A DNA stretch of 64,000 nt from Embleya scabrispora DSM 41855 (lineage in GTDB: Bacteria; Actinomycetota; Actinomycetes; Streptomycetales; Streptomycetaceae), in assembly GCF_000372745.1 (NCBI RefSeq), contig NZ_KB889686.1, forward strand, positions 124,195 through 188,194. The letters run 5' to 3'. Shown in pieces: positions 3,316-12,330 of this stretch. The notes below the pieces were generated by a model. It was given only the letters and a program-made list of their open reading frames with translations. It did no database searches and had not been told where the DNA came from. How positions within the stretch are numbered: the stretch's first letter is position 1; each line of letters starts with the position of its first letter. The translations under genes and the position numbers were made by a program.

Positions 3316-4554
3316 TCAGCCGGCTACGTCCAGATAGGTCGCCATCTCGCGCATGTCGGCGGTCAAGGTTCGCTTCCGCTTGTGCAGAATGCCGCGCATG
3401 ACATCTCGCGCCATCGCCTGATGCCGTAGCCACTCGGGGGACACCGCGCGGACCTGCTTCAGTTCGTCCATGCCGCTCTGGTGATCGCCCAGGTTCACAT
3501 ATGCGTAGCCGACGTCGAGCCGATGCCGGTTCCAATTGTCACCGCTGGGCTGCCCGGCCTTGCGCCGGCCCTTGGCACTCAGTGGGCCCTCCTCCGCGCG
3601 CCGCAGGGCGGTTCTGGAATCCCCGGAGATCATCGCGTCCTCCACCGACTTCATGGCCACCGTGACCGGCCCGAAGGTGATCCCATGACGGTGGTAGTCG
3701 GTGCGTTCGACGCCCACCGCCGCGGCTGCCGCGGTCGCCATCCGCAAGTGGGCCTGTGCCTCCCGCGGACGGTTGTTGCGCACCGCGCCCGCCGCTCCAC
3801 GCAGCGCCAACCAGCCCCATACGGCGAGTTGTTCCGGCGTGGCCGTGGACATCTTCGGTTCGATCGCCTCGGCGGTCGTCATCGCCAACGTCTCCGCATC
3901 GTCCAGACGCCCCTGACGAAGCAGCAACCAGCACAACCCGACGACTCCCGAAGCCGCGCTCAGCGTGTCCTCGGCCGCCCGCGCATCCGCAATCGCACCT
4001 GCCAGGGCCTGATAGGCCAAGTCGTAGTGCCGTGTCTGCGTCAGGAAGCGCCCGGCCACCTGGTATGCCTCCGCACGCGTGACGAGTGCGCTCGCACGTT
4101 CCTCACCTTCGGCGTAGTACTCGACGGCTCGATCGGTACCCCGCAGTAGGTCGGGCAGGAGCAGTGCGACGCTTTGATATCGGTCGGCGTGGTAGAGCTT
4201 CGCCCCATCCAGGACGGTCCGACGCAGTGCCGGAAGACTCGGCTCCTCCCCCGGCTCGGGCAGGCGCGCACTCAGGCCCACCGGAGGCGTCAGGGCCTTG
4301 CGAAGCTCGATCAGATGGAGCCGGTTGGGATCATCCGAACGCACGGGTTCCGGTGCATCCGCAGCCAGTAGCGCCGAGGTCCGCACACCCAGGGCGCGGG
4401 CAATCGCATGCAGCGACTCCATCCGCAGCGTGCCGCCCTGCTCGACCTTGCGGATCGTCCCCAGCGACAGCTCGGCCGCCTCGGCCAGTTGCTCCTGGCT
4501 GTACCCGGCGCGGCGCCGGTACCTCCTGACGTTCTCACCGAGTGTTGCCGTCAT
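3316..4554 (-). CDS. XRE-family regulator with C-terminal TPR-like repeats
   Basis: About 412 aa from ATG 4554, preceded by GGTGGGG; an ATG at 4566 is an alternative. An N-terminal XRE helix-turn-helix is clear (LGENVRRYRRRAGYSQEQLA, then EAAELSLGTIRKVEQGGTLR). The remainder is alpha-helical tetratricopeptide-like sequence (AEGEERASALVTRAEAYQVA, RHYDLAYQALAGAIADARAA, LDVGYAYVNLGDHQSGMDEL). This architecture is widespread in Streptomyces and usually pairs with a small adjacent partner or peptide signal; none is obvious here. It may sense a peptide or partner protein through the repeats. It stands alone between convergent HxlR and the phosphoesterase gene. Confidence 0.85.
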   Translation of the reverse strand: MTATLGENVRRYRRRAGYSQEQLAEAAELSLGTIRKVEQGGTLRMESLHAIARALGVRTSALLAADAPEPVRSDDPNRLHLIELRKALTPPVGLSARLPEPGEEPSLPALRRTVLDGAKLYHADRYQSVALLLPDLLRGTDRAVEYYAEGEERASALVTRAEAYQVAGRFLTQTRHYDLAYQALAGAIADARAAEDTLSAASGVVGLCWLLLRQGRLDDAETLAMTTAEAIEPKMSTATPEQLAVWGWLALRGAAGAVRNNRPREAQAHLRMATAAAAAVGVERTDYHRHGITFGPVTVAMKSVEDAMISGDSRTALRRAEEGPLSAKGRRKAGQPSGDNWNRHRLDVGYAYVNLGDHQSGMDELKQVRAVSPEWLRHQAMARDVMRGILHKRKRTLTADMREMATYLDVAG

Positions 4555-4626
4555 GGTCCCCACCATCTGTTGGTCCACTCGCGCACTGCACCCGAGCCGG
4601 CGCGGCAAGGCAGCAACTGTCGCGCA

Positions 4627-5121
4627 TCAATCCAGGTCGTGCAGGGCCACGTCGGTGACCTCGCCCGCGTCGGCGGTCAGCGTCATGTACGTGTGATGCG
4701 GCTGTCGGCGTCGGTCGGTCGGCGAGCCCGGGTTGAGCAAGCGCAGGCCGGAGGCGGCCACGGTGTCCCATGGGATGTGGCTGTGCCCGAACACCAGCAC
4801 ATCCACGTCGGGATACCGCGCCGCACACCGCCGTTCCCGACCCTCCGCCGGACCCGTCTCGTGCACGACGGCGAACCGCACCCCGCCCAACTCGACCCGG
4901 GCCACCTCCGGCAACCGGCTTCGCAGATCCGGCCCGTCGTTGTTGCCGTACACCCCGACCAACCGCCGCGACCGGGCCTCGAACAGGTCCAGCGCGGCGG
5001 CGTCGACCCAATCACCCGCGTGAATCACCACATCGACCGCCGCCAACTCGGCGAGCAACCGCTCGGGAAGCACCTTGGCCCGCCGGGGCAGATGCGTATC
5101 GGACGTGAGCAGAATGCGCAT
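4627..5121 (-). CDS. YfcE/MJ0936-type metallophosphoesterase
   Basis: 164 aa from MRILLTSDTHLP. All calcineurin-like metal-binding motifs are visible in order: SDTH, IHAGDWVD, YGNNDG, VVHETG, VFGHSHIPW and LNPGSPTD. Family members are small manganese-dependent phosphodiesterases of unclear physiological substrate. It follows the SIS-domain gene by 110 bp on the same strand and may be the last gene of the catabolic cluster, although it could equally have its own promoter. The start at 5121 is chosen because the extra residues of the longer frame are not conserved. Confidence 0.88.
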   Translation of the reverse strand: MRILLTSDTHLPRRAKVLPERLLAELAAVDVVIHAGDWVDAAALDLFEARSRRLVGVYGNNDGPDLRSRLPEVARVELGGVRFAVVHETGPAEGRERRCAARYPDVDVLVFGHSHIPWDTVAASGLRLLNPGSPTDRRRQPHHTYMTLTADAGEVTDVALHDLD

Positions 5122-5231
5122 ACCTCCACCGTACGAGCCCAACCACCGCCCCGGGCGACACCGGGCCGGGTGAACCCTGTCGTGGCCGGCGTCGACCCAC
5201 CGGCCACGACCCGAGCGAGGCGCTCGAACGA

Positions 5232-6275
5232 TCAGGTGGTCGGAGTGACCTTGGCCAGGCCGATCGGGGCGTCCGGATTGGCGCCGCGGTGCAGGGCGAA
5301 GGTACGGGCGAGATTTTGCAGATGCACGGTGGTGGCGATCGCGCGGGCGGATTCCGTACGCAGGTCGCCCAGTTCGGGCGCCACCGTCGCGTGCGGTATA
5401 CCGTCGGCGACCAGGCGCGCGCGAAGGGCGGCGATGTCCGGTGCGGTCGGGCCGCCCAGGTCGATCAGCAACACCGGTACCCGATCGCCCAGTGCGGCGA
5501 TCGGCCCGTGCAGCAGATCGGCGACCGAGATGCCCTCGGCGAACACCCCCGACGTCTCCCGAATCTTGAGCGCGCCCTCCAACGCCACCGCACCCCCGAG
5601 CCCACGTCCCGCCACCACCAGGCGATCGTGGTGCGCCCAGTCCGCGGCCAACGCCTCACACGCGTCGGCACCGGCCAGTACCCGACTCACCGCCTCCGGG
5701 AGACCGGCCAGATCCGCGAGATCCGCGACGGTCGGCGGCAACGGACCGAGCGCAAGCGCGATCCCGACCATGGCCACAAGCTGCGCGGTGACCGTCTTCG
5801 TGGCCGGAACCGCGATCTCCGTACCCGCGTCCGTCGCGGCAAGCACATGCGCCTCCGCCGCAAGCACGCTGTCCGCCTCGTTGGTGACCGCCACCACCCG
5901 GGCGCCCCGCTCGCGCGCGGCCCGCACCGCCGTAACGATCTCGGGCGTACGACCCGACTGGCTCAACGCGGTGACCAGGTAGCCGGTGTAGTCGGTGTGC
6001 GCGTCGTACCTGGTCACCAGGCTGGGCGCGGCCAGCCCGGCCGGCCGCCCGGACGCCAACTCGTACAGGTAGCGCCCGAACGCCGCCGCGTTGTCCGAGG
6101 ACCCACGCGCAATCAATACCGACCCGTGCAACGGCACCGGCAACGCGTCCCGAATGGCCGCCGCCAGTTCCGGCAGTCGAGCCACCAACCGCCGCAACAC
6201 ATCGGGCTGTTCGGCCATCTCGGCGGCCATCACGGCGCCGGGGGCGGGAAGGGCGGGAGAAGCCGTGTTCGTCAT
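5232..6275 (-). CDS. Double SIS-domain sugar-phosphate isomerase/deaminase/deglycase
   Basis: About 347 aa from ATG 6275; ATG 6281 is equally possible, and GATGGG precedes both. The first SIS domain shows VLIARGSSDNAAAFGRYLYE, TALSQSGRTPEIVTAV and GTEIAVPATKTVTAQL. The second shows RLVVAGRGLGGAVALEGAL, ALKIRETSGVFAEGIS and LLHGPIAAL. The layout is that of the GlmS isomerase half and of NagB-II and FrlB-type enzymes, which act on aminosugar phosphates or phosphorylated Amadori compounds. There is no glutaminase domain. It follows a sugar kinase and an APC permease, so it probably cleaves or deaminates the phosphorylated imported compound. Which of these activities it has cannot be told from sequence alone. 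Confidence 0.85.
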   Translation of the reverse strand: MTNTASPALPAPGAVMAAEMAEQPDVLRRLVARLPELAAAIRDALPVPLHGSVLIARGSSDNAAAFGRYLYELASGRPAGLAAPSLVTRYDAHTDYTGYLVTALSQSGRTPEIVTAVRAARERGARVVAVTNEADSVLAAEAHVLAATDAGTEIAVPATKTVTAQLVAMVGIALALGPLPPTVADLADLAGLPEAVSRVLAGADACEALAADWAHHDRLVVAGRGLGGAVALEGALKIRETSGVFAEGISVADLLHGPIAALGDRVPVLLIDLGGPTAPDIAALRARLVADGIPHATVAPELGDLRTESARAIATTVHLQNLARTFALHRGANPDAPIGLAKVTPTT

Positions 6276-6362
6276 GTTCATCCCATCGATCGATTTCGAA
6301 CAACAAGGACCGAAAACCAAACCGCGACACCGAAACCCGACCGCAGCCGTGGGCCCCGGGCG

Positions 6363-6401
6363 GTGGCCGTGGCCGTGGCCGTGGCCGTGGCCGTGGCCGT
6401 G
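6363..6401. repeat. GTGGCC hexanucleotide tandem repeat
   Basis: Six full copies of GTGGCC plus a partial copy lie between the ROK kinase stop and the SIS-enzyme start, about 90 bp before the latter. On the minus strand the unit keeps the upstream frame open as His-Gly repeats, but this leader is probably untranslated. Copy number could vary by slippage without changing frame. Confidence 0.8.
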
Positions 6402-6458
6402 AACCATGGCCTCGGAGCGCGGAACAACCCGCCCCGCCCGCGGAGCGGACCAGCGCCG

Positions 6459-7475
6459 TCACGTCACCAACGCCCACCCCGGCCGCTCACCCCCAGCCAC
6501 GTCCCACGCCAGCGCGGCAGCGCCCCGCAGCGCCCCGTCGTGGATGTAGCGCGCCGCCACGATCACATCGCCCGGATCGGCCGTGCCCGGAGTGTGCTTC
6601 GCCAGGAAACCCCGCAGCACGTCGAGCACCCGCTCGGACACGGCCATCAGCCCGCCACCCACGGCGATCCGCGTCGGATCCAGCGCCAGATACAGGTTGA
6701 GGACGTGGCCCGCCAACACATCGAGGGCATGCTCGGCGATGGCGCGCAGGCGCGGGTCGGTGGAGGTCAGGATCGCCGCCGCGTCCGGCGGCAGGCCATT
6801 GCCGGCGAGTGCGTACAGGGACTGCGTACGGGTCATGAGCGGGCCGCCGCCGATCAACGATTCCAGGTCCGGCTCCTCCGGCCGACCCGGCACCAGCGAG
6901 TAGCCGATCTCGCCGGCCACCCCCCGCGCGCCGCCCACGACCCGGCCGCCGACCGTGAGCGCGGCGGCAACTCCCGTACCCAGGTTGACGAACAGCCCCG
7001 GATCGGCGGCAACCAGCGCGCCCGAGCGCAACTCGGCCAACCCCGCCGCCTTGACGTCGTTGGCCACCACCACCGGCACCGACCCGAACGCCTCGCGCGC
7101 CAGGCCGAGCACGTCCACGTTCTCGATTCCGGGCAGGTTCGGCGACAGCTCCACCCCGGCCGAGGTCACCGTGCCGGGACAGACCAGGCCCACCGCCACG
7201 ATCTCGCGCCGCCCGTCCCGGGTCACCGCCGCGACCTGCTCCCGGGCCAGCCGCAGCAGCCGATCCAGCGCGTGCGCCATGTCCTCGCCCGGCTCGCGGG
7301 TGGCCACCCGACGCTCGGCGAGCACCGTACCGGTCGCGTCGAGGGCGGCCATGGCCGTCTTGGTGCCGCCGATGTCGAGCGCGACTATCCCGAGGGAGTC
7401 GCGCGGCAGCGGTGGGTCGACCAGGTCAGCGGAGTCGAACACGATCGTCACAATCCTCGAGTCGGGCAATCGCAC
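6459..7475 (-). CDS. ROK family sugar kinase, zinc motif missing
   Basis: Up to 338 aa. GTG 7451 or ATG 7475 are possible starts. The ATP-binding motif is VALDIGGTKTAMAALD. The ROK core continues as GLVCPGTVTSAGVELSPNLP, VPVVVANDVKAAGLAE (catalytic Asp in NDV) and PGLFVNLGTGVAAALTVGG. ROK kinases phosphorylate glucose, fructose, N-acetylglucosamine and similar sugars. The canonical GH and CxCGxxGCxE zinc site is absent: the sequence is GEIGYSLVPGRPEEPDLESL, with Tyr in place of His and no cysteines. It lies between the SIS enzyme and the YhfX-like protein, so it probably phosphorylates the pathway intermediate acted on by the SIS enzyme. Confidence 0.87.
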   Translation of the reverse strand: MRLPDSRIVTIVFDSADLVDPPLPRDSLGIVALDIGGTKTAMAALDATGTVLAERRVATREPGEDMAHALDRLLRLAREQVAAVTRDGRREIVAVGLVCPGTVTSAGVELSPNLPGIENVDVLGLAREAFGSVPVVVANDVKAAGLAELRSGALVAADPGLFVNLGTGVAAALTVGGRVVGGARGVAGEIGYSLVPGRPEEPDLESLIGGGPLMTRTQSLYALAGNGLPPDAAAILTSTDPRLRAIAEHALDVLAGHVLNLYLALDPTRIAVGGGLMAVSERVLDVLRGFLAKHTPGTADPGDVIVAARYIHDGALRGAAALAWDVAGGERPGWALVT

Positions 7476-7550
7476 ATGGCACGGGCAACGGGCACGGGCA
7501 CGGGCAACGAGTAAGGGGCAACGGAAACAGTGGCCGTCGCAGCGGCCCGG

Positions 7551-8792
7551 TCAGGACGGATCGCCCACCACCCGCGCCTCCGCGTCGTACCGCTCGCCCC
7601 ACACCACCGCACCCGCCTCGGCCTCGTGCAACCCGGCCCGGGGCGACCCTGCCCCGTGCAACCCGGCCACCGACCGCGTCCGCCCACGTGTCACGAACGC
7701 CTGCGGCCGGAAGCACATCACCACCGTGTCGCCCGGCCGGATCCCCAGCCGGCGCGCGTCCCGAAGCACCGTGTAGTAGTGGATCGCCCCGTCCGGAGCG
7801 GTGTCCACCCGCGCCACCCGCTCGACCGCGGTAGCCGCGTCCCGGCCCACCAGCGCGGTGAGCGGGAACTCGCCCAGGACCTTGTCGACGTAGTGCCCGG
7901 CGGCGAACGCGTACGCGTCGTCGCCGTCCACGTGCGACACCTCGGTCACGTACACGATCGCCGGCCGCTCCGGCGCCTCCTCGGAGAACACGTGCAGCGG
8001 AGTCGTCCCGTGGATCGCGTTGCCCGGCTCGACATGCGTGGCCCCCGCGTCGGCGGCGATCGTCAGCGAACGCGCCGACGTGGTCCCGGGCGCGTTCACC
8101 TGACGGATGTCGAACCCGGCCGCCCGCAACCGCTCGGCCGCCGCGACGACCGTGGCCAGGTTGGGCGTGGCCACGATCCGCCGCTGCTCGGGATCGGCGA
8201 GCAGGCACGGAAACGTGGTCACGCCGTGCACCGCCACACCCTCCACCGCGTCGACCTCGCGTGCCGCGGCCACCACGTCGGCGGCCGGGAACCCGCCGCC
8301 GTGGCCGAAGTAGAACCGGTCCCCGTCGCCGTGCACGCGAAGCAGCACCGACACGGGCGCGCCGCCGCGCCGTACCGCCGCCGCCCCGATCCGCCGGGCC
8401 GCGTCCACCGAGAACACGGTGACCACCTCGGGGTCGGCGCCGACCACGAAGTCCTCGCTGCCCCGATGCGGCTGCACCAGGTGCCCGACGTGCCCGACCG
8501 GCAGGCCGTGCCGGACCGCGGCCGACACGCACGCGGTGTCCACCGCGACCACCGGGCCGAGCCCCGCCTCGATCGCGGTGCGCGTGACGTCGGGATTGCG
8601 CCCGTACTGCTTGGCCATCACGTACGTGGACAGCCCGCGCGAGCGCGCGGCCTCGGCGATCGTGGCCGCGTTGCGCGCCACCGTGTCCAGGTCCGCCACG
8701 TACGTGTTGGCGAGCAGGCGACCCTCCTGATGAGCCGTCACGACGGCCCCGATCAGCGGGCGGTTGTGGGCGAGGAGTCGATCGAGGAACAT
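7551..8792 (-). CDS. yhfX: YhfX-like PLP-dependent alanine-racemase-fold protein
   Basis: 413 aa, matching YhfX of Escherichia coli in length and motifs. MFLDRLLAHNRPLIGAVV is followed by TYVMAKQYGRNP, where the Lys is the expected PLP lysine. Then come GLPVGHVGHLVQPHRGSEDF, PEVVTVFSVDAARRIG, GVTTFPCLL, RQVNAPGTTSARS, VSHVDGDDAYAFAAGHYVDK and VVMCFRPQAFVTRGR. The fold is the alanine racemase/D-threonine aldolase type III barrel. The reaction of YhfX is not established; racemisation, epimerisation or lyase chemistry on an amino-acid moiety are possible. It is 75 bp upstream of the kinase and 151 bp downstream of an APC permease, inside an apparent operon. Confidence 0.85.
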   Translation of the reverse strand: MFLDRLLAHNRPLIGAVVTAHQEGRLLANTYVADLDTVARNAATIAEAARSRGLSTYVMAKQYGRNPDVTRTAIEAGLGPVVAVDTACVSAAVRHGLPVGHVGHLVQPHRGSEDFVVGADPEVVTVFSVDAARRIGAAAVRRGGAPVSVLLRVHGDGDRFYFGHGGGFPAADVVAAAREVDAVEGVAVHGVTTFPCLLADPEQRRIVATPNLATVVAAAERLRAAGFDIRQVNAPGTTSARSLTIAADAGATHVEPGNAIHGTTPLHVFSEEAPERPAIVYVTEVSHVDGDDAYAFAAGHYVDKVLGEFPLTALVGRDAATAVERVARVDTAPDGAIHYYTVLRDARRLGIRPGDTVVMCFRPQAFVTRGRTRSVAGLHGAGSPRAGLHEAEAGAVVWGERYDAEARVVGDPS

Positions 8793-8943
8793 CGCGAGGC
8801 TCTCCTTGAGACGAGCGGACGGGGCGAGGGGGGCGGGACGCGCGGACGGGATGCGGGGGGCACGCGGGCGGGCGAAGGCCGGGGGTCGTCGGGCATGGGG
8901 CGTCGGCGTGGGGCGTGGGGCCGTCGGGCGTTGCCCGCGCGGA

Positions 8944-10440
8944 TCAGGTCCGGCCGACCGGCACGGATATCGCCCCCTCCCCCGGCTCCGCGGCCGACGC
9001 GCCGGCCGCGCCCGTATCCGGTTCGTCCTCGAACACGCGACCCATCGCGGCCAGCACCTGCGGACGCGAGCGGTGCGCCCAGACCAGATACGCGGTGCCC
9101 AGCAGCATCCAGCCGACGATCACGTACGGCACGAGGTTGTTCGGATGATCGGGCACCGGCCACAGCTGGCCGTATATCGGCAGCAGCATCAGCAACACGG
9201 TCGCCCCGGGCAGGATCCCGTGGCGCAGCGTGGAGAACTCGCCCCGGTGCTCGCGCAGGTAGAACCGGATCACCGCGACGCTCATCAGGATGTAGATGAT
9301 CACCATCCCGAGCCCGAGGATGGTGCCCGCGAACCCGTACACGCCCAGCGGACCCAGATCGCCGCCGAAGCCGCTGCCCAGCACCAGCGCGAAGACGAGC
9401 GAGAAGCCCAGATAGGCGGTGATCGCCGATTGCGGCACGTGGCGTTCGTTGGTCCGGCCCAGGAAGCGCGGGAGCACACCTTCGCGGCCCATCGAGAACA
9501 GCACCCGCACGGCCGCGTTCGAGCCGGAGACCACGTTGGCGAACTGGCTGACGATCACGGTCAGCGCGAGGATCCAGGTGACACCCCAGTAGCGGTCCAC
9601 CAGGGTGGTCAACGGCGCGGCGTCCTCGGCCAGTTGGGAACCGTGCGCGGAGCCGAAGCCGATCGAGGTCGAGTACGCCATCAGCACATAGAAGGTGCCG
9701 ATCACCGCGACCGCGGTGAACAGCGCGAGCGGGATGCTGCGTTTGGCGCCGCGCGCCTCCTCACCCAGGGTGGCCACCGACTCGAAGCCGATGAACATCA
9801 GGATGCCCCACAACATGCCGGTGCCCAGGCCGCTGAAGCCGTCGATCGAATTGGCCGGATCGAACGGCGCCACCGACAGGCCCGAGTCGCCGCCGTCGCC
9901 GAGGATCACCCCGGCCAGGCCGAGCAGTACGCCGACCTCCAGGACGAGGAAGATCAACGCGGTCTTGGCCGAACTGGACACGCCGAGCGAGTTGACACCC
10001 CACACCACGGCGGCGAACGCCAGCGACATCACCTGCCACGGCACCCGGACGTCGAACTGGCTGTCCAGGAAGTCGTGGCTGTATCCCCCGAGCGCGGCGA
10101 ACAACATCGGCCCGACCATGCCGTAGGTGAGCAGGAGCAGCCACCCGGAGAGGAAGCCGCCGGACTTGCCGAAGCCGTGGCTGTTGTAGGTGTAGGCGAA
10201 GCCGGCCGCCGGCAGCTTGCGGGCGAACGCGGCGATCGTGTTGGCGACCAGGAGGCTGGCCACCATGGCAAGCACGATGGCGAGCGGCAGCGCGTACCCG
10301 GCTCCCGCCGCGGCGGGCGGCGTGTTGAACGCGACGCTGGTGGCGGGGCCCATGAAGGCCATACACATGGCGACGGCACCGAACACGGACAACGTGTTCC
10401 GGCGGAGGGACCCGCCTCTCGACGGCTGTGGGGTCGACAT
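8944..10440 (-). CDS. APC superfamily amino acid permease
   Basis: 498 aa from ATG 10440, with GGAG about 9 bases upstream. About 12 membrane helices are visible, beginning TLSVFGAVAMCMAFMGPATS and including SLLVANTIAAFARKLPAAGF, MLWGILMFIGFESVATLGEE and VSQFANVVSGSNAAVRVLFS. The FESVATLGEEARGAKRSIP stretch is the conserved APC helix 6-7 junction. It acts in the cytoplasmic membrane and probably imports an amino acid or amino-acid conjugate. Its place between the ROK regulator and YhfX suggests it brings in the substrate of the cluster. FrlA, the fructoselysine importer, belongs to the same superfamily. Confidence 0.88.
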   Translation of the reverse strand: MSTPQPSRGGSLRRNTLSVFGAVAMCMAFMGPATSVAFNTPPAAAGAGYALPLAIVLAMVASLLVANTIAAFARKLPAAGFAYTYNSHGFGKSGGFLSGWLLLLTYGMVGPMLFAALGGYSHDFLDSQFDVRVPWQVMSLAFAAVVWGVNSLGVSSSAKTALIFLVLEVGVLLGLAGVILGDGGDSGLSVAPFDPANSIDGFSGLGTGMLWGILMFIGFESVATLGEEARGAKRSIPLALFTAVAVIGTFYVLMAYSTSIGFGSAHGSQLAEDAAPLTTLVDRYWGVTWILALTVIVSQFANVVSGSNAAVRVLFSMGREGVLPRFLGRTNERHVPQSAITAYLGFSLVFALVLGSGFGGDLGPLGVYGFAGTILGLGMVIIYILMSVAVIRFYLREHRGEFSTLRHGILPGATVLLMLLPIYGQLWPVPDHPNNLVPYVIVGWMLLGTAYLVWAHRSRPQVLAAMGRVFEDEPDTGAAGASAAEPGEGAISVPVGRT

Positions 10441-10732
10441 CGGTGGTACTCCAGGCGGTTCGGTGGGGTGGGACGGACCCCTGAGGGTGCGCGGGCCACT
10501 TGGTGCGGCGGCGCGATCTGCGTTACGGGAGCGAAGGGGCGGTCGGCTGGGGAGGTGCTGGTGGCGCCGGCCGGTGTGGGGGCGCTTCGAGGTTGCGTGG
10601 ATGTAATGGGTGGGATGGGTGGGATGGGTGTCGTGCGTGGAGCGGCGGCAGGTGGTTGCGTGTCGTGGGGGCCGTGGCCTCACGTCGTCGGTTCGCCGCG
10701 TCGGCTCCGCCCTGTGGTGGGCGAGTGGTCCG
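10441..10732. other. 292-bp leader between ROK regulator and permease, with a G-tract array
   Basis: No gene. At 10608-10628 the plus strand holds five GGG tracts separated by T or AT (GGGTGGGATGGGTGGGATGGG split over both lines), a strong G-quadruplex motif on the template strand of the permease transcript. Nearby G-rich words continue to 10700. This is the largest gap in the cluster, so the permease may have its own promoter here. Confidence 0.5.
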
Positions 10733-11926
10733 TCAGCGGGTCGTGCCCGCCGGCGAAAGCAGTGCGGACAGTTCCAGGTCGGCCCGGACCGCCGCCGCCG
10801 CGTCCGGCGCGACGTCGAAGCGGACCCGCAGTGCGCTCAGTCCGCGCGAGACCGCGCCCAGCGCGCCCGCGAGATCGGCCAGTTCGGAGTGCACGAGCTC
10901 GGGGCAGGCGGGCAATCGTCGGCGCACCCGTTCACGCAGGCGAGTGGTCATCGCCGCGTCGATCGAGGCCGAGACCCGGCCGCCGAGGACGACCAGTTCG
11001 GGTTCGTACGCGATCGTCACCGCGATCAACGCCACACCGAGCGCGCGCTCGAACCGATCGATCACGGCCCGCGCCGCCGGCGAAGAGTCGACGAACAGGT
11101 CGGCGGCGGTGTCCACGTCCAGACCGGCATCGCGCGCGGCCCGCATCAGGCCCTCGGCGCCGACCAGTTCCTCCACGGTGTGGTCCTCGGAATCCACCGG
11201 CAGGAAGCCGAACTCGCCCACGAGGCCGGTCGGTCCGCCCCGCACATGCCGATCCACGGCCACACCGGCGCCGAAGCCGGCACCGACGGTGAACATCACG
11301 GCGGTGTCGGCGGTACGGGCGGCGCCGTGCCGCAACTCGCCTTCCAGAGCCAGATCGGCATCGTTCCCGAAGGCGACGGTGCCGTCCAGCGCGCGGCGCA
11401 CCCGGCGGGTGAACAGCTCGCCCTCGATCTGCGGAAGGTTGGTCGCGCCACGCACACCCAACCCGTCGGCCGCGACCGCCCCGGGCAGACCTATCACGCC
11501 CGCGCGCAGCACATCGGGCGCGGCCGAGTCGGCGTACAACGCACGAACCCGCTCGGCGAGCCAGTCCGCGAGATCGTCGGCCGCCAGGTGCCTCGGGGTC
11601 GGCTCCTCGCGATAGCGCGGCGAGTGGCCCAGCAGGTCGGTGGCCAGGAACCGACAGGTGGTGCCACCGAGGTCGACGCCGACCGCGACTCCACGCTCGG
11701 CGGCCACCTCGATCACCACACCCTGCCGCCCCCGCCGCCCGGTCTGCAAAACGGCGCCCTCCCGCACCAACCCCTCGTCAAGCAAGCCCTCGACCACACG
11801 CGAAACGGTGGCCGCGCTCAGCCCGGTCTGCTGGGTGAGACCCGCCCGACTGTGCTGCCCACCGGCCAACAACACCGCCAGCAGGCTGGAGCGGTTGGCC
11901 CAACGGGCATCGGCCGTCTCCGCCAT
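10733..11926 (-). CDS. ROK family transcriptional repressor (NagC/XylR-like)
   Basis: About 397 aa from ATG 11926, with AGAGG five bases upstream; an in-frame GTG lies at 11932. An N-terminal winged helix (RSSLLAVLLAGGQHSRAGLT, then QQTGLSAATVSRVVEGLLDE) is joined to a ROK sugar-binding domain (VAVGVDLGGTTCRFLATDLL, AGVIGLPGAVAADG, VAFGNDADLALEGEL, FTVGAGFGAGVAVD). Like the kinase of this cluster it lacks the CxCGxxGC zinc site (GEFGFLPVDSEDHTVEELVG). It heads the cluster and probably represses it until a sugar or sugar-phosphate ligand binds. Confidence 0.88.
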   Translation of the reverse strand: MAETADARWANRSSLLAVLLAGGQHSRAGLTQQTGLSAATVSRVVEGLLDEGLVREGAVLQTGRRGRQGVVIEVAAERGVAVGVDLGGTTCRFLATDLLGHSPRYREEPTPRHLAADDLADWLAERVRALYADSAAPDVLRAGVIGLPGAVAADGLGVRGATNLPQIEGELFTRRVRRALDGTVAFGNDADLALEGELRHGAARTADTAVMFTVGAGFGAGVAVDRHVRGGPTGLVGEFGFLPVDSEDHTVEELVGAEGLMRAARDAGLDVDTAADLFVDSSPAARAVIDRFERALGVALIAVTIAYEPELVVLGGRVSASIDAAMTTRLRERVRRRLPACPELVHSELADLAGALGAVSRGLSALRVRFDVAPDAAAAVRADLELSALLSPAGTTR

Positions 11927-11935
11927 GTTCACCTC

Positions 11936-11960
11936 TCAGAGTGAAAATATTTCAGAGTGA
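11936..11960. promoter_or_regulatory. Probable ROK operator
   Basis: Two direct copies of TCAGAGTGA (11936-11944 and 11952-11960) are spaced 16 bp apart and frame a palindromic AT-rich core, TGAAAATATTTCA (11942-11954). The site is 10 bp upstream of the ROK regulator start. AT-rich palindromes of this kind are typical ROK repressor sites, and this one is strikingly AT-rich for its surroundings. Confidence 0.6.
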
Positions 11961-12330
11961 GAGCAAATTAGGCCCACCACAAAGAGGTGTCAAGACCCCA
12001 TCAAGCCCCAAGCCCCCGGGAACCAACCAAGGGAAAATGCCCCCGGCCCCCGGCCCCCGGCCCCGAGCATCGCGAGCACACCCGCGCTCGGCGTCCTCGC
12101 CTGGCTCGCCACGGCCCGGGCCGTCAAGGCACGCAGGCGCTGGGATGGGCCGGGACCGATTCCCGCCCCGGCAGGCTTCGTCGCGGTCGCACTGCTGTGG
12201 AGAATGCCGCGGCCGACGTGACGACGGCTCCGTTCGACTCCCCGCGTGAGGAGCGGACGACGACCATCCCGACCACACGGACCCGCACCAACACGGGTCA
12301 CGACCACCACACACCACGGAGGAAAGCACC
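11961..12330. other. Intergenic stretch with C-tracts
   Basis: No gene recognised. It contains repeated CCCCCGG units near 12040-12065, which could form G-quadruplex DNA on the minus strand. A GGAGG-type ribosome site ends the stretch, just before the P5C reductase stub. Confidence 0.4.

Follow-up and report, generated by a model that had tools for sequence, protein, structure and literature searches.

A conserved YhfX gene cluster with a ROK regulator in Embleya scabrispora and its possible role in the catabolism of amine-bearing sugars

The five-gene unit and its boundaries

The subject of this study is a gene cluster around yhfX in the soil actinomycete Embleya scabrispora DSM 41855, located in a 64,000-nt stretch of genomic DNA (C125:124195-188194 of the 11.39-Mb genome), which is called the window throughout. 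Six minus-strand open reading frames (ORFs) lie at 4627-11932. All of them are intact, and matches to Pfam and NCBIfam models and to the PDB entry 4KBX bear out the families named in a first-pass annotation. In the direction of transcription they encode a ROK-family repressor with a helix-turn-helix (HTH) and a ROK domain (10733-11926; Pfam ROK 1.7e-29), an APC-superfamily permease (AA_permease_2; 8944-10440; Pfam 2e-33), the fold-type III pyridoxal phosphate (PLP) enzyme YhfX (7551-8792; PDB 4KBX 5.4e-66), belonging to a clade here called ROK type, a ROK sugar kinase of zinc-less type whose start is uncertain (6459-7475; Pfam ROK 2.9e-31), a protein with two SIS domains of GlmS/NagB-II type (5232-6281; best NCBIfam model NagB-II) and a YfcE-family phosphodiesterase (Metallophos_2/YfcE; 4627-5142; TIGR00040 2.5e-29). 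The gene bounds were revised against those of other Embleya: the SIS gene was set at 5232-6281 because the Gly/His-rich stretch upstream is not conserved among them, and the permease start was placed at 10440. For the repressor, the sequence suggests the ATG at 11926 as a more likely start than the alternative GTG at 11932.

The unit consists of five genes, from the repressor to the SIS gene (5232-11926), together with a 31-bp palindrome beside the repressor start. By tblastn, the complete set occurs in the same order in four Embleya records (the window, L058, L059 and L084), and a fifth (L060) shows YhfX, the ROK kinase and SIS before a contig end cuts the locus; L009 and L010 are contigs of L058 and L060 and were not counted twice. 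The closest named relatives by YhfX are Embleya sp. NBC_00888 (93.7%) and Embleya hyalina NBRC 13850 (88%). In G003, which belongs to another genus of the Streptomycetaceae, the set is reordered to ROK kinase, APC permease, SIS and YhfX with a divergent ROK regulator, at identities to the window of 66% for the permease, 45% for YhfX, 41% for SIS, 40% for the kinase and 30% for the regulator. G023 carries a minimal locus of ROK repressor, YhfX and APC permease.

The idea of a gene cluster therefore stands for these five genes, which are conserved together in the four Embleya and, reordered, in G003, but the phosphodiesterase, which had been counted as a sixth member, has to be left out. Its distance to the SIS gene is 0.1 kb in the window and 0.8-3.3 kb in the four other Embleya records, with further predicted genes in between in L058, L059 and L060, and it gave no tblastn match in the non-Embleya loci searched. 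For these reasons it was judged a genus-level neighbour and excluded from the operon. In L061, inspection by eye had suggested a phosphoesterase gene behind SIS, but it matched no Pfam family and was dropped. An XRE-type regulator is encoded behind the phosphodiesterase (3316-4608 of the window), and in one other Embleya record (L059) a 50% identical copy adjoins the phosphodiesterase.

Distribution of YhfX loci

The YhfX-like_C domain (PF21279) was found in 24 of 297 genomes of the family, 5 of 396 of the phylum and 20 of 394 of the class, these samples overlapping. Within the family, 18 of the 24 genomes have the classic yhf-type neighbourhood, some without one gene; the six others are four Embleya, G003 and G023. 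The class sample holds 13 classic loci, two mixed ones and five of the ROK type, which is therefore scattered rather than common. A scan of genome contigs yielded two loci, both Embleya-like, and a protein search of plasmid records yielded 19 records, 11 of which were examined (the others were five Aminobacter, all 42.0% to the query, and three E. coli).

Altogether 22 ROK-type loci were compared, counting matches up to 9 kb from YhfX; many of these loci are related, and the counts are not independent. A ROK repressor is present in 18, SIS in 12, parts of ATP-binding cassette (ABC) importers in 14, an M20 protein in nine, an APC permease in seven and PHP in four. The ROK kinase is present in 10, eight of them detected with the kinase query and two being the second, HTH-less ROK protein of G813 and G901. 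M20 was found together neither with PHP nor with the ROK kinase (0/22 each). Contig ends truncate three loci (L060, L061 and L063). Of these, L063 carries no more than a fragment of YhfX and owes its assignment to its M20 neighbour alone, so that without it M20 stands at 8 of 21.

The operon recurs in several families, and SIS occurs in eight lineages: Embleya, G003, G625, G699, G813, G901, Rhizobium and Sinorhizobium. The usual alphaproteobacterial order is ROK repressor, M20, one or two substrate-binding proteins (SBP), permease, YhfX and ATPase. Rhizobium sp. NIBRBAC000502774 has this order plus SIS, and S. fredii NGR234 has SIS, but no repressor, M20 or SBP was recovered there, and the permease only in part. 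G813 and G901 share the order SBP-PHP-ROK kinase-permease-YhfX-ATPase-SIS with a divergent ROK repressor, and in G901 neighbouring genes between PHP and SIS overlap by 4 nt at four of the five junctions. In G699 the order is ROK kinase-SIS-SBP-permease-YhfX-ATPase-APC-PHP, again with a divergent repressor. As a control, 18 classic Streptomyces yhf loci gave no SIS or kinase match at 1e-8, nor did a second set of seven classic loci; one of the 18 (L042) holds a distant APC permease (29%). The two mixed actinobacterial loci (L089 and L090, of G895 and G985) combine YhfW-YhfX, YhfS and PHP with a distant SIS and an ABC ATPase and stand between the two YhfX settings. The neighbourhood search for YhfX with SIS and ROK proteins, proposed in the first-pass annotation, has thus brought out co-conservation of five genes in Embleya, their recurrence in G003 and overlapping sets elsewhere.

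The ABC importers of the relatives are of the sugar type, in many cases CUT2-type. The M20 proteins resemble ArgE/DapE (155.9 bits, under the model cut-off), and PHP belongs to the PTE/lactonase family. Mammalian PTER of the PTE family is described as an amide hydrolase that acts on N-acetyltaurine (PMC11374699). By analogy, PHP is therefore a possible deacylase. PTE-family proteins were found in five of the six genomes searched for PHP elsewhere. A PHP of the locus type outside the locus was looked for in Embleya and G003 and rejected: the PTE proteins compared are 26-34% identical to the locus PHPs, versus 55-66% among the latter.

YhfX of the ROK type

The window YhfX combines Ala_racemase_N (PF01168, 44.2 bits, cut-off 24.1) with the C-terminal domain PF21279 (62.4 bits, cut-off 27). 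A structure search with the single sequence gave one match, E. coli YhfX (PDB 4KBX, 'Uncharacterized protein YhfX'; 5.4e-66, 226 bits). When a 25-row YhfX profile was used, the next matches were D-threonine aldolases and a D-3-hydroxyaspartate aldolase, in the N-terminal part only, ending at about position 256 of 396. A lysine in the motif KQxGR (K61), invariant in 25 of 25 aligned YhfX, is the candidate for the Schiff-base lysine, judged from the fold class.

In the YhfX tree the ROK-type proteins (17 rows) are set apart with support 97/94, and the seven classic rows lie on one side of a starred branch. Five ROK-type loci were left out of this tree: L060 and L063 are partial, L087 has a broken frame, and L080 and L086 are similar to others. 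Position 164 of alignment A1 is H in 17/17 ROK-type rows and Q in the 8/8 other rows, from which residues 307-308 of the ROK type are also absent. In public records (L078, L079, L080 and L081, at 8001-9215) ROK-type YhfX is labelled 'alanine racemase'. This label is probably wrong, and the records so labelled probably hide a separate catabolic family. We found no YhfX function in the open-access literature, and no functional paper on yhf genes, DUF2620 or PLP amino-sugar epimerases; in PMC7513527 and PMC10652928, YhfX appears only in gene tables.

The SIS protein

The best NCBIfam model for the SIS protein is NagB-II (NF046059) with 167.7 bits. As this is under the equivalog cut-off of 430, the protein is filed as GlmS/NagB-II-like and not as NagB-II. 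To E. coli GlmS we compared 14 SIS proteins, 12 from ROK-type and two from mixed loci. All 14 keep S303, S347, Q348, S349, K485, E488, H504 and K603 (GlmS numbering), residues which we take to bind the sugar phosphate, open the ring and form the Schiff base. In E. coli FrlB the counterparts of K485, K603, Q348, S349 and S303 are T, G, D, Y and P, respectively; among the 13 positions checked, FrlB shares G301, S347, T352, E488 and H504 with GlmS. Twenty models match the window protein at E<=0.001, and the FrlB model of NCBIfam is not one of them.

The SIS proteins are not one clade. In the tree, the two rhizobial proteins join Shewanella NagB-II (100/99), and those of Embleya, G003 and G699 form a separate clade (100/99). 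A single clade of all 14 was rejected (p-AU 0.0012), the constrained group having been named after the first tree was seen; the tree carries a warning for long branches (G625, GlmS, FrlB) and contains a single NagB-II protein. The topology requires at least two changes: SIS may have been gained twice, or gained once and lost again in the NagB-II line.

A classical NagB was also looked for elsewhere in the genome. The single PF01182 match (L138:9933-10664, on C118) was rejected, being a 6-phosphogluconolactonase (TIGR01198) with zwf, opcA and transketolase as neighbours, and the source Embleya, whose genome is 98% complete, seems to be without classical NagB. A SIS paralogue on C172, with GlmS and NagB-II as best models, both under the cut-off, adjoins a sugar ABC importer and a GH3 protein that scores 192.5 bits with the beta-N-acetylhexosaminidase model (cut-off 207). 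Together, the apparent lack of a classical NagB and the setting of this paralogue suggest that SIS proteins of this type are glucosamine 6-phosphate (GlcN6P) deaminases in Embleya.

Kinase, repressor and permease

The window kinase has a ROK domain (Pfam, 109.5 bits) and a GEIGY motif, and is without the CxCGxxGC motif. The zinc-type ROK hexokinases are marked by GExGH and CxCGxxGCxE. All 10 aligned locus kinases depart from this pattern: each has GEI[GA]Y and none the Cys motif, and D34, G36, G37 and T38 (DxGGT) as well as N139 and D140 are invariant. The tree did not show the locus kinases to be one clade. We also considered whether GEIGY marks the YhfX system alone, a view that is weakened. 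Among the 22 ROK ORFs of the genome it occurs in two, the window kinase and a kinase on C180, and a ROK ORF on C110 has GEVGY; two of the 22 are without such a motif by regular expression.

The repressor is 90-95% identical in three other Embleya records and reaches 52 bits with the NagC model, far under the cut-off of 650. The window permease shows 66% and 62% identity to the permeases beside YhfX in G003 and G023. It is not FrlA-like: the best local BLASTP match to FrlA covers 33 residues at E 0.018, which is not meaningful.

A candidate operator beside the repressor gene

Abutting the repressor start is the 31-bp palindrome CTCTCA-N3-TGAAA-TAT-TTTCA-N3-TGAGAG (11933-11963, minus strand), a candidate ROK operator. 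It is the single site in the 11.39-Mb genome at up to three mismatches, and 100 shuffles of the window gave no match. The palindrome is kept in all four aligned Embleya upstream regions (G000, G020, G004 and NBC_00888), the DNA further upstream having diverged; in NBC_00888 both arms are changed and the site is more symmetrical. A candidate promoter on the same strand (11965-11993), with TTGACA (11993-11988), a 17-nt spacer and TAATTT (11970-11965), ends just before the palindrome. Its TTGACA is found in three of the four Embleya (TTGATA in G004) and its TAATTT in all four; as a -10 element, TAATTT agrees with the consensus at only three of six positions. A generic promoter scan called no promoter at the repressor upstream region, and an Rfam search gave no matches. 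GAGAGG before the ATG at 11926 could be the ribosome-binding site, which the palindrome would therefore overlap. Upstream of the permease gene no conserved palindrome was noticed, despite 292 nt between it and the repressor gene.

The upstream regions of 14 loci were then scanned and the best palindrome of each was set against its 95% shuffle level. It is above this level in six (three Embleya, G003, G824 and Ruegeria), equals it in Embleya G020 and is below it in G699 and Nitratireductor; G813, G901, G023 and Rhizobium 774 gave no palindromes. Ruegeria has two above the level, the second being TTAGTTCG..CGAACTAA, and Aminobacter has a similar TTAGTTCG..CGAACTAA palindrome slightly under its level. 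Palindromes of this TTAGTTCG..CGAACTAA kind precede the ROK regulator at the alphaproteobacterial loci L078:3282-3316 and L081:2250-2274.

Proposed pathway and alternative explanations

With a sugar kinase, a SIS protein, a PLP enzyme and an amino-acid-type permease in the window, and sugar-type ABC importers in its relatives, the theme of amine plus sugar in the first-pass annotation has held. We favour, with moderate confidence, the reading that the five-gene set is an operon for the catabolism of a small sugar bearing an amine, or of a derivative of such a sugar, which is most likely handled via a GlmS/NagB-II-type step. The ROK repressor would bind the palindrome beside its own start and be released by a sugar ligand. 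The APC permease would import the compound, as the CUT2-type ABC importer would in many relatives. In some relatives the deacylase-like M20 protein or the PTE-family hydrolase PHP may first free the amine; the Embleya loci, which have neither, may import the free amine. YhfX would act through PLP on the primary amine, as epimerase, racemase, lyase or aldolase, the zinc-less ROK kinase would phosphorylate the sugar, and SIS would deaminate or isomerise the amino-sugar phosphate into central metabolism. That YhfX acts on the amino sugar itself, for example by C2 epimerisation of a free 2-amino-2-deoxyhexose (such as mannosamine to glucosamine), whose product kinase and SIS could then process, is an unlikely special case; it is compatible with the results and demanded by none of them, and we know of no fold-type III PLP enzyme that epimerises an amino sugar.

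Several observations weigh against this catabolic operon. Ten of the 22 ROK-type loci have no SIS (L063 among them, which is a contig end) and 12 have no kinase (among them the contig ends L061 and L063), so neither is obligatory, and the G023 locus is limited to repressor, YhfX and permease. The NagB-II score of SIS is far under the model cut-off. Independent recruitment of SIS may be the history behind the tree, one gain followed by a loss being the other reading, and our confidence was slightly lowered for this reason. Furthermore, ROK regulators need not sense the sugar of the pathway, and the usual substrates of ArgE/DapE-like M20 proteins are N-acyl amino acids, which would agree with an amino acid as the substrate.

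This last point belongs to the alternative that YhfX is a racemase or lyase for an (N-acyl) amino acid freed by M20 or PHP, with SIS and kinase handling the attached sugar in some hosts. The minimal G023 locus, the ArgE/DapE-like M20 and the alanine-racemase/D-threonine-aldolase fold class of YhfX speak for it. However, ROK regulators in 18 and sugar-type ABC parts in 14 of the 22 loci do not, nor does SIS, present in 12 loci without being one clade, and we regard this alternative as rather unlikely. Somewhat less probable still is the use of Amadori compounds, which the first-pass annotation had put forward from the likeness to the Frl system. Here the permease would import a fructosyl-amino acid, the ROK kinase would make the 6-phosphate, SIS would be the deglycase and YhfX would act on the freed amino acid. 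The permease does belong to an amino-acid family, the frl and yhf operons of E. coli adjoin, and FrlB, too, has a glutamate and a histidine where GlmS has E488 and H504; a conserved general acid and base are reported for FraB/FrlB (PMC9609667), so a deglycase activity of SIS is conceivable, if unlikely. But the GlmS/NagB-II residue set is complete in 14/14 SIS proteins and differs in FrlB at five positions, the FrlB model is absent from those matching SIS, the permease has no meaningful match to FrlA, and the importers of the relatives are of the sugar type. A specific link to Frl is thus not supported.

A pathway for amino-sugar acids, in which PHP serves as lactonase, M20 as deacetylase and YhfX as dehydratase or lyase of a D-glucosaminate-like acid, would make use of the PTE/lactonase family of PHP and of the remote profile similarity of YhfX to the D-threonine and D-3-hydroxyaspartate aldolases. 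Yet in this pathway the GlmS/NagB-II-type SIS would have nothing to do, the C-terminal domain of YhfX is a Pfam family of its own, and the aldolase matches stop at about position 256 of the 396 in the profile; we consider this pathway improbable. Mere co-location of unrelated genes, finally, could point to the gaps of 75 to 292 nt between the five window genes and to the phosphodiesterase as just such a neighbour, but the set recurs reordered in another genus and overlapping sets are found in other families and in alphaproteobacteria, which makes chance a very remote explanation.

Comparison with known systems

A second cluster of the same Embleya genome, on C180 (L135:6797-10776), also encodes a ROK repressor, an APC permease and a ROK kinase, the latter likewise with GEIGY. 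It differs from the window operon in that neither YhfX nor SIS is among its predicted neighbours. Its kinase is 50% identical to that of G003, its permease about 25% over 203 residues to the G003 permease, and with the FrlA model this permease scores 97 bits, under the cut-off of 800.

The E. coli frlABCD operon resembles the window operon in having an APC-superfamily permease, a SIS protein and a sugar kinase. However, the permeases share no meaningful similarity and the SIS protein is of another subfamily. FrlD is a PfkB-type kinase, whereas the window kinase is a ROK protein. In agreement with the first-pass annotation, the Pfam and NCBIfam labels of the five genes include no counterpart of FrlC or FrlD (FrlC and FrlD were not used as queries). 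In E. coli K-12 (NC_000913.3 3497000-3514000) the frl and yhf operons lie side by side and convergent, and a single deletion in a genome-reduced E. coli strain is described to have removed frlA-R and most yhf genes (PMC10652928).

Operons for N-acetylglucosamine (GlcNAc) and glucosamine (GlcN) of the NagB-II/GlmS type come close with their ROK regulator and kinase and a SIS protein with the full catalytic set. The window operon differs by its APC importer, by YhfX and by the absence of NagA from its five genes, and to our knowledge GlcN pathways do not need YhfX.

With the yhf operon of E. coli and Streptomyces (yhfZ, yhfY, yhfU, yhfT, php, yhfS, yhfX and yhfW), whose genes carry the labels putative or uncharacterised in E. 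coli K-12, the ROK-type loci have YhfX in common and, in four of 22, the PTE-family PHP. The yhf operon is without a matching ROK kinase, SIS or repressor of the window type, and the two kinds of YhfX form separate clades. None of the 22 ROK-type loci showed YhfS, YhfT, YhfU or YhfW near YhfX, and in the Embleya loci YhfZ, too, gave no match within 9 kb. YhfX is a protein of solved structure (4KBX) for which the open-access literature yielded no function. The ROK-type operons supply it with partners of predictable chemistry, namely kinase, SIS, deacylase-like proteins and importer, along with a candidate operator; the search for its substrate can therefore begin at the last steps of the pathway, and both the orphan YhfX and the E. 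coli yhf operon become testable. If YhfX does act on an amino sugar itself, the ROK-type loci would be an unrecognised salvage route for amino sugars in actinobacteria and alphaproteobacteria, and the same chemistry would be the missing step of the E. coli yhf operon.

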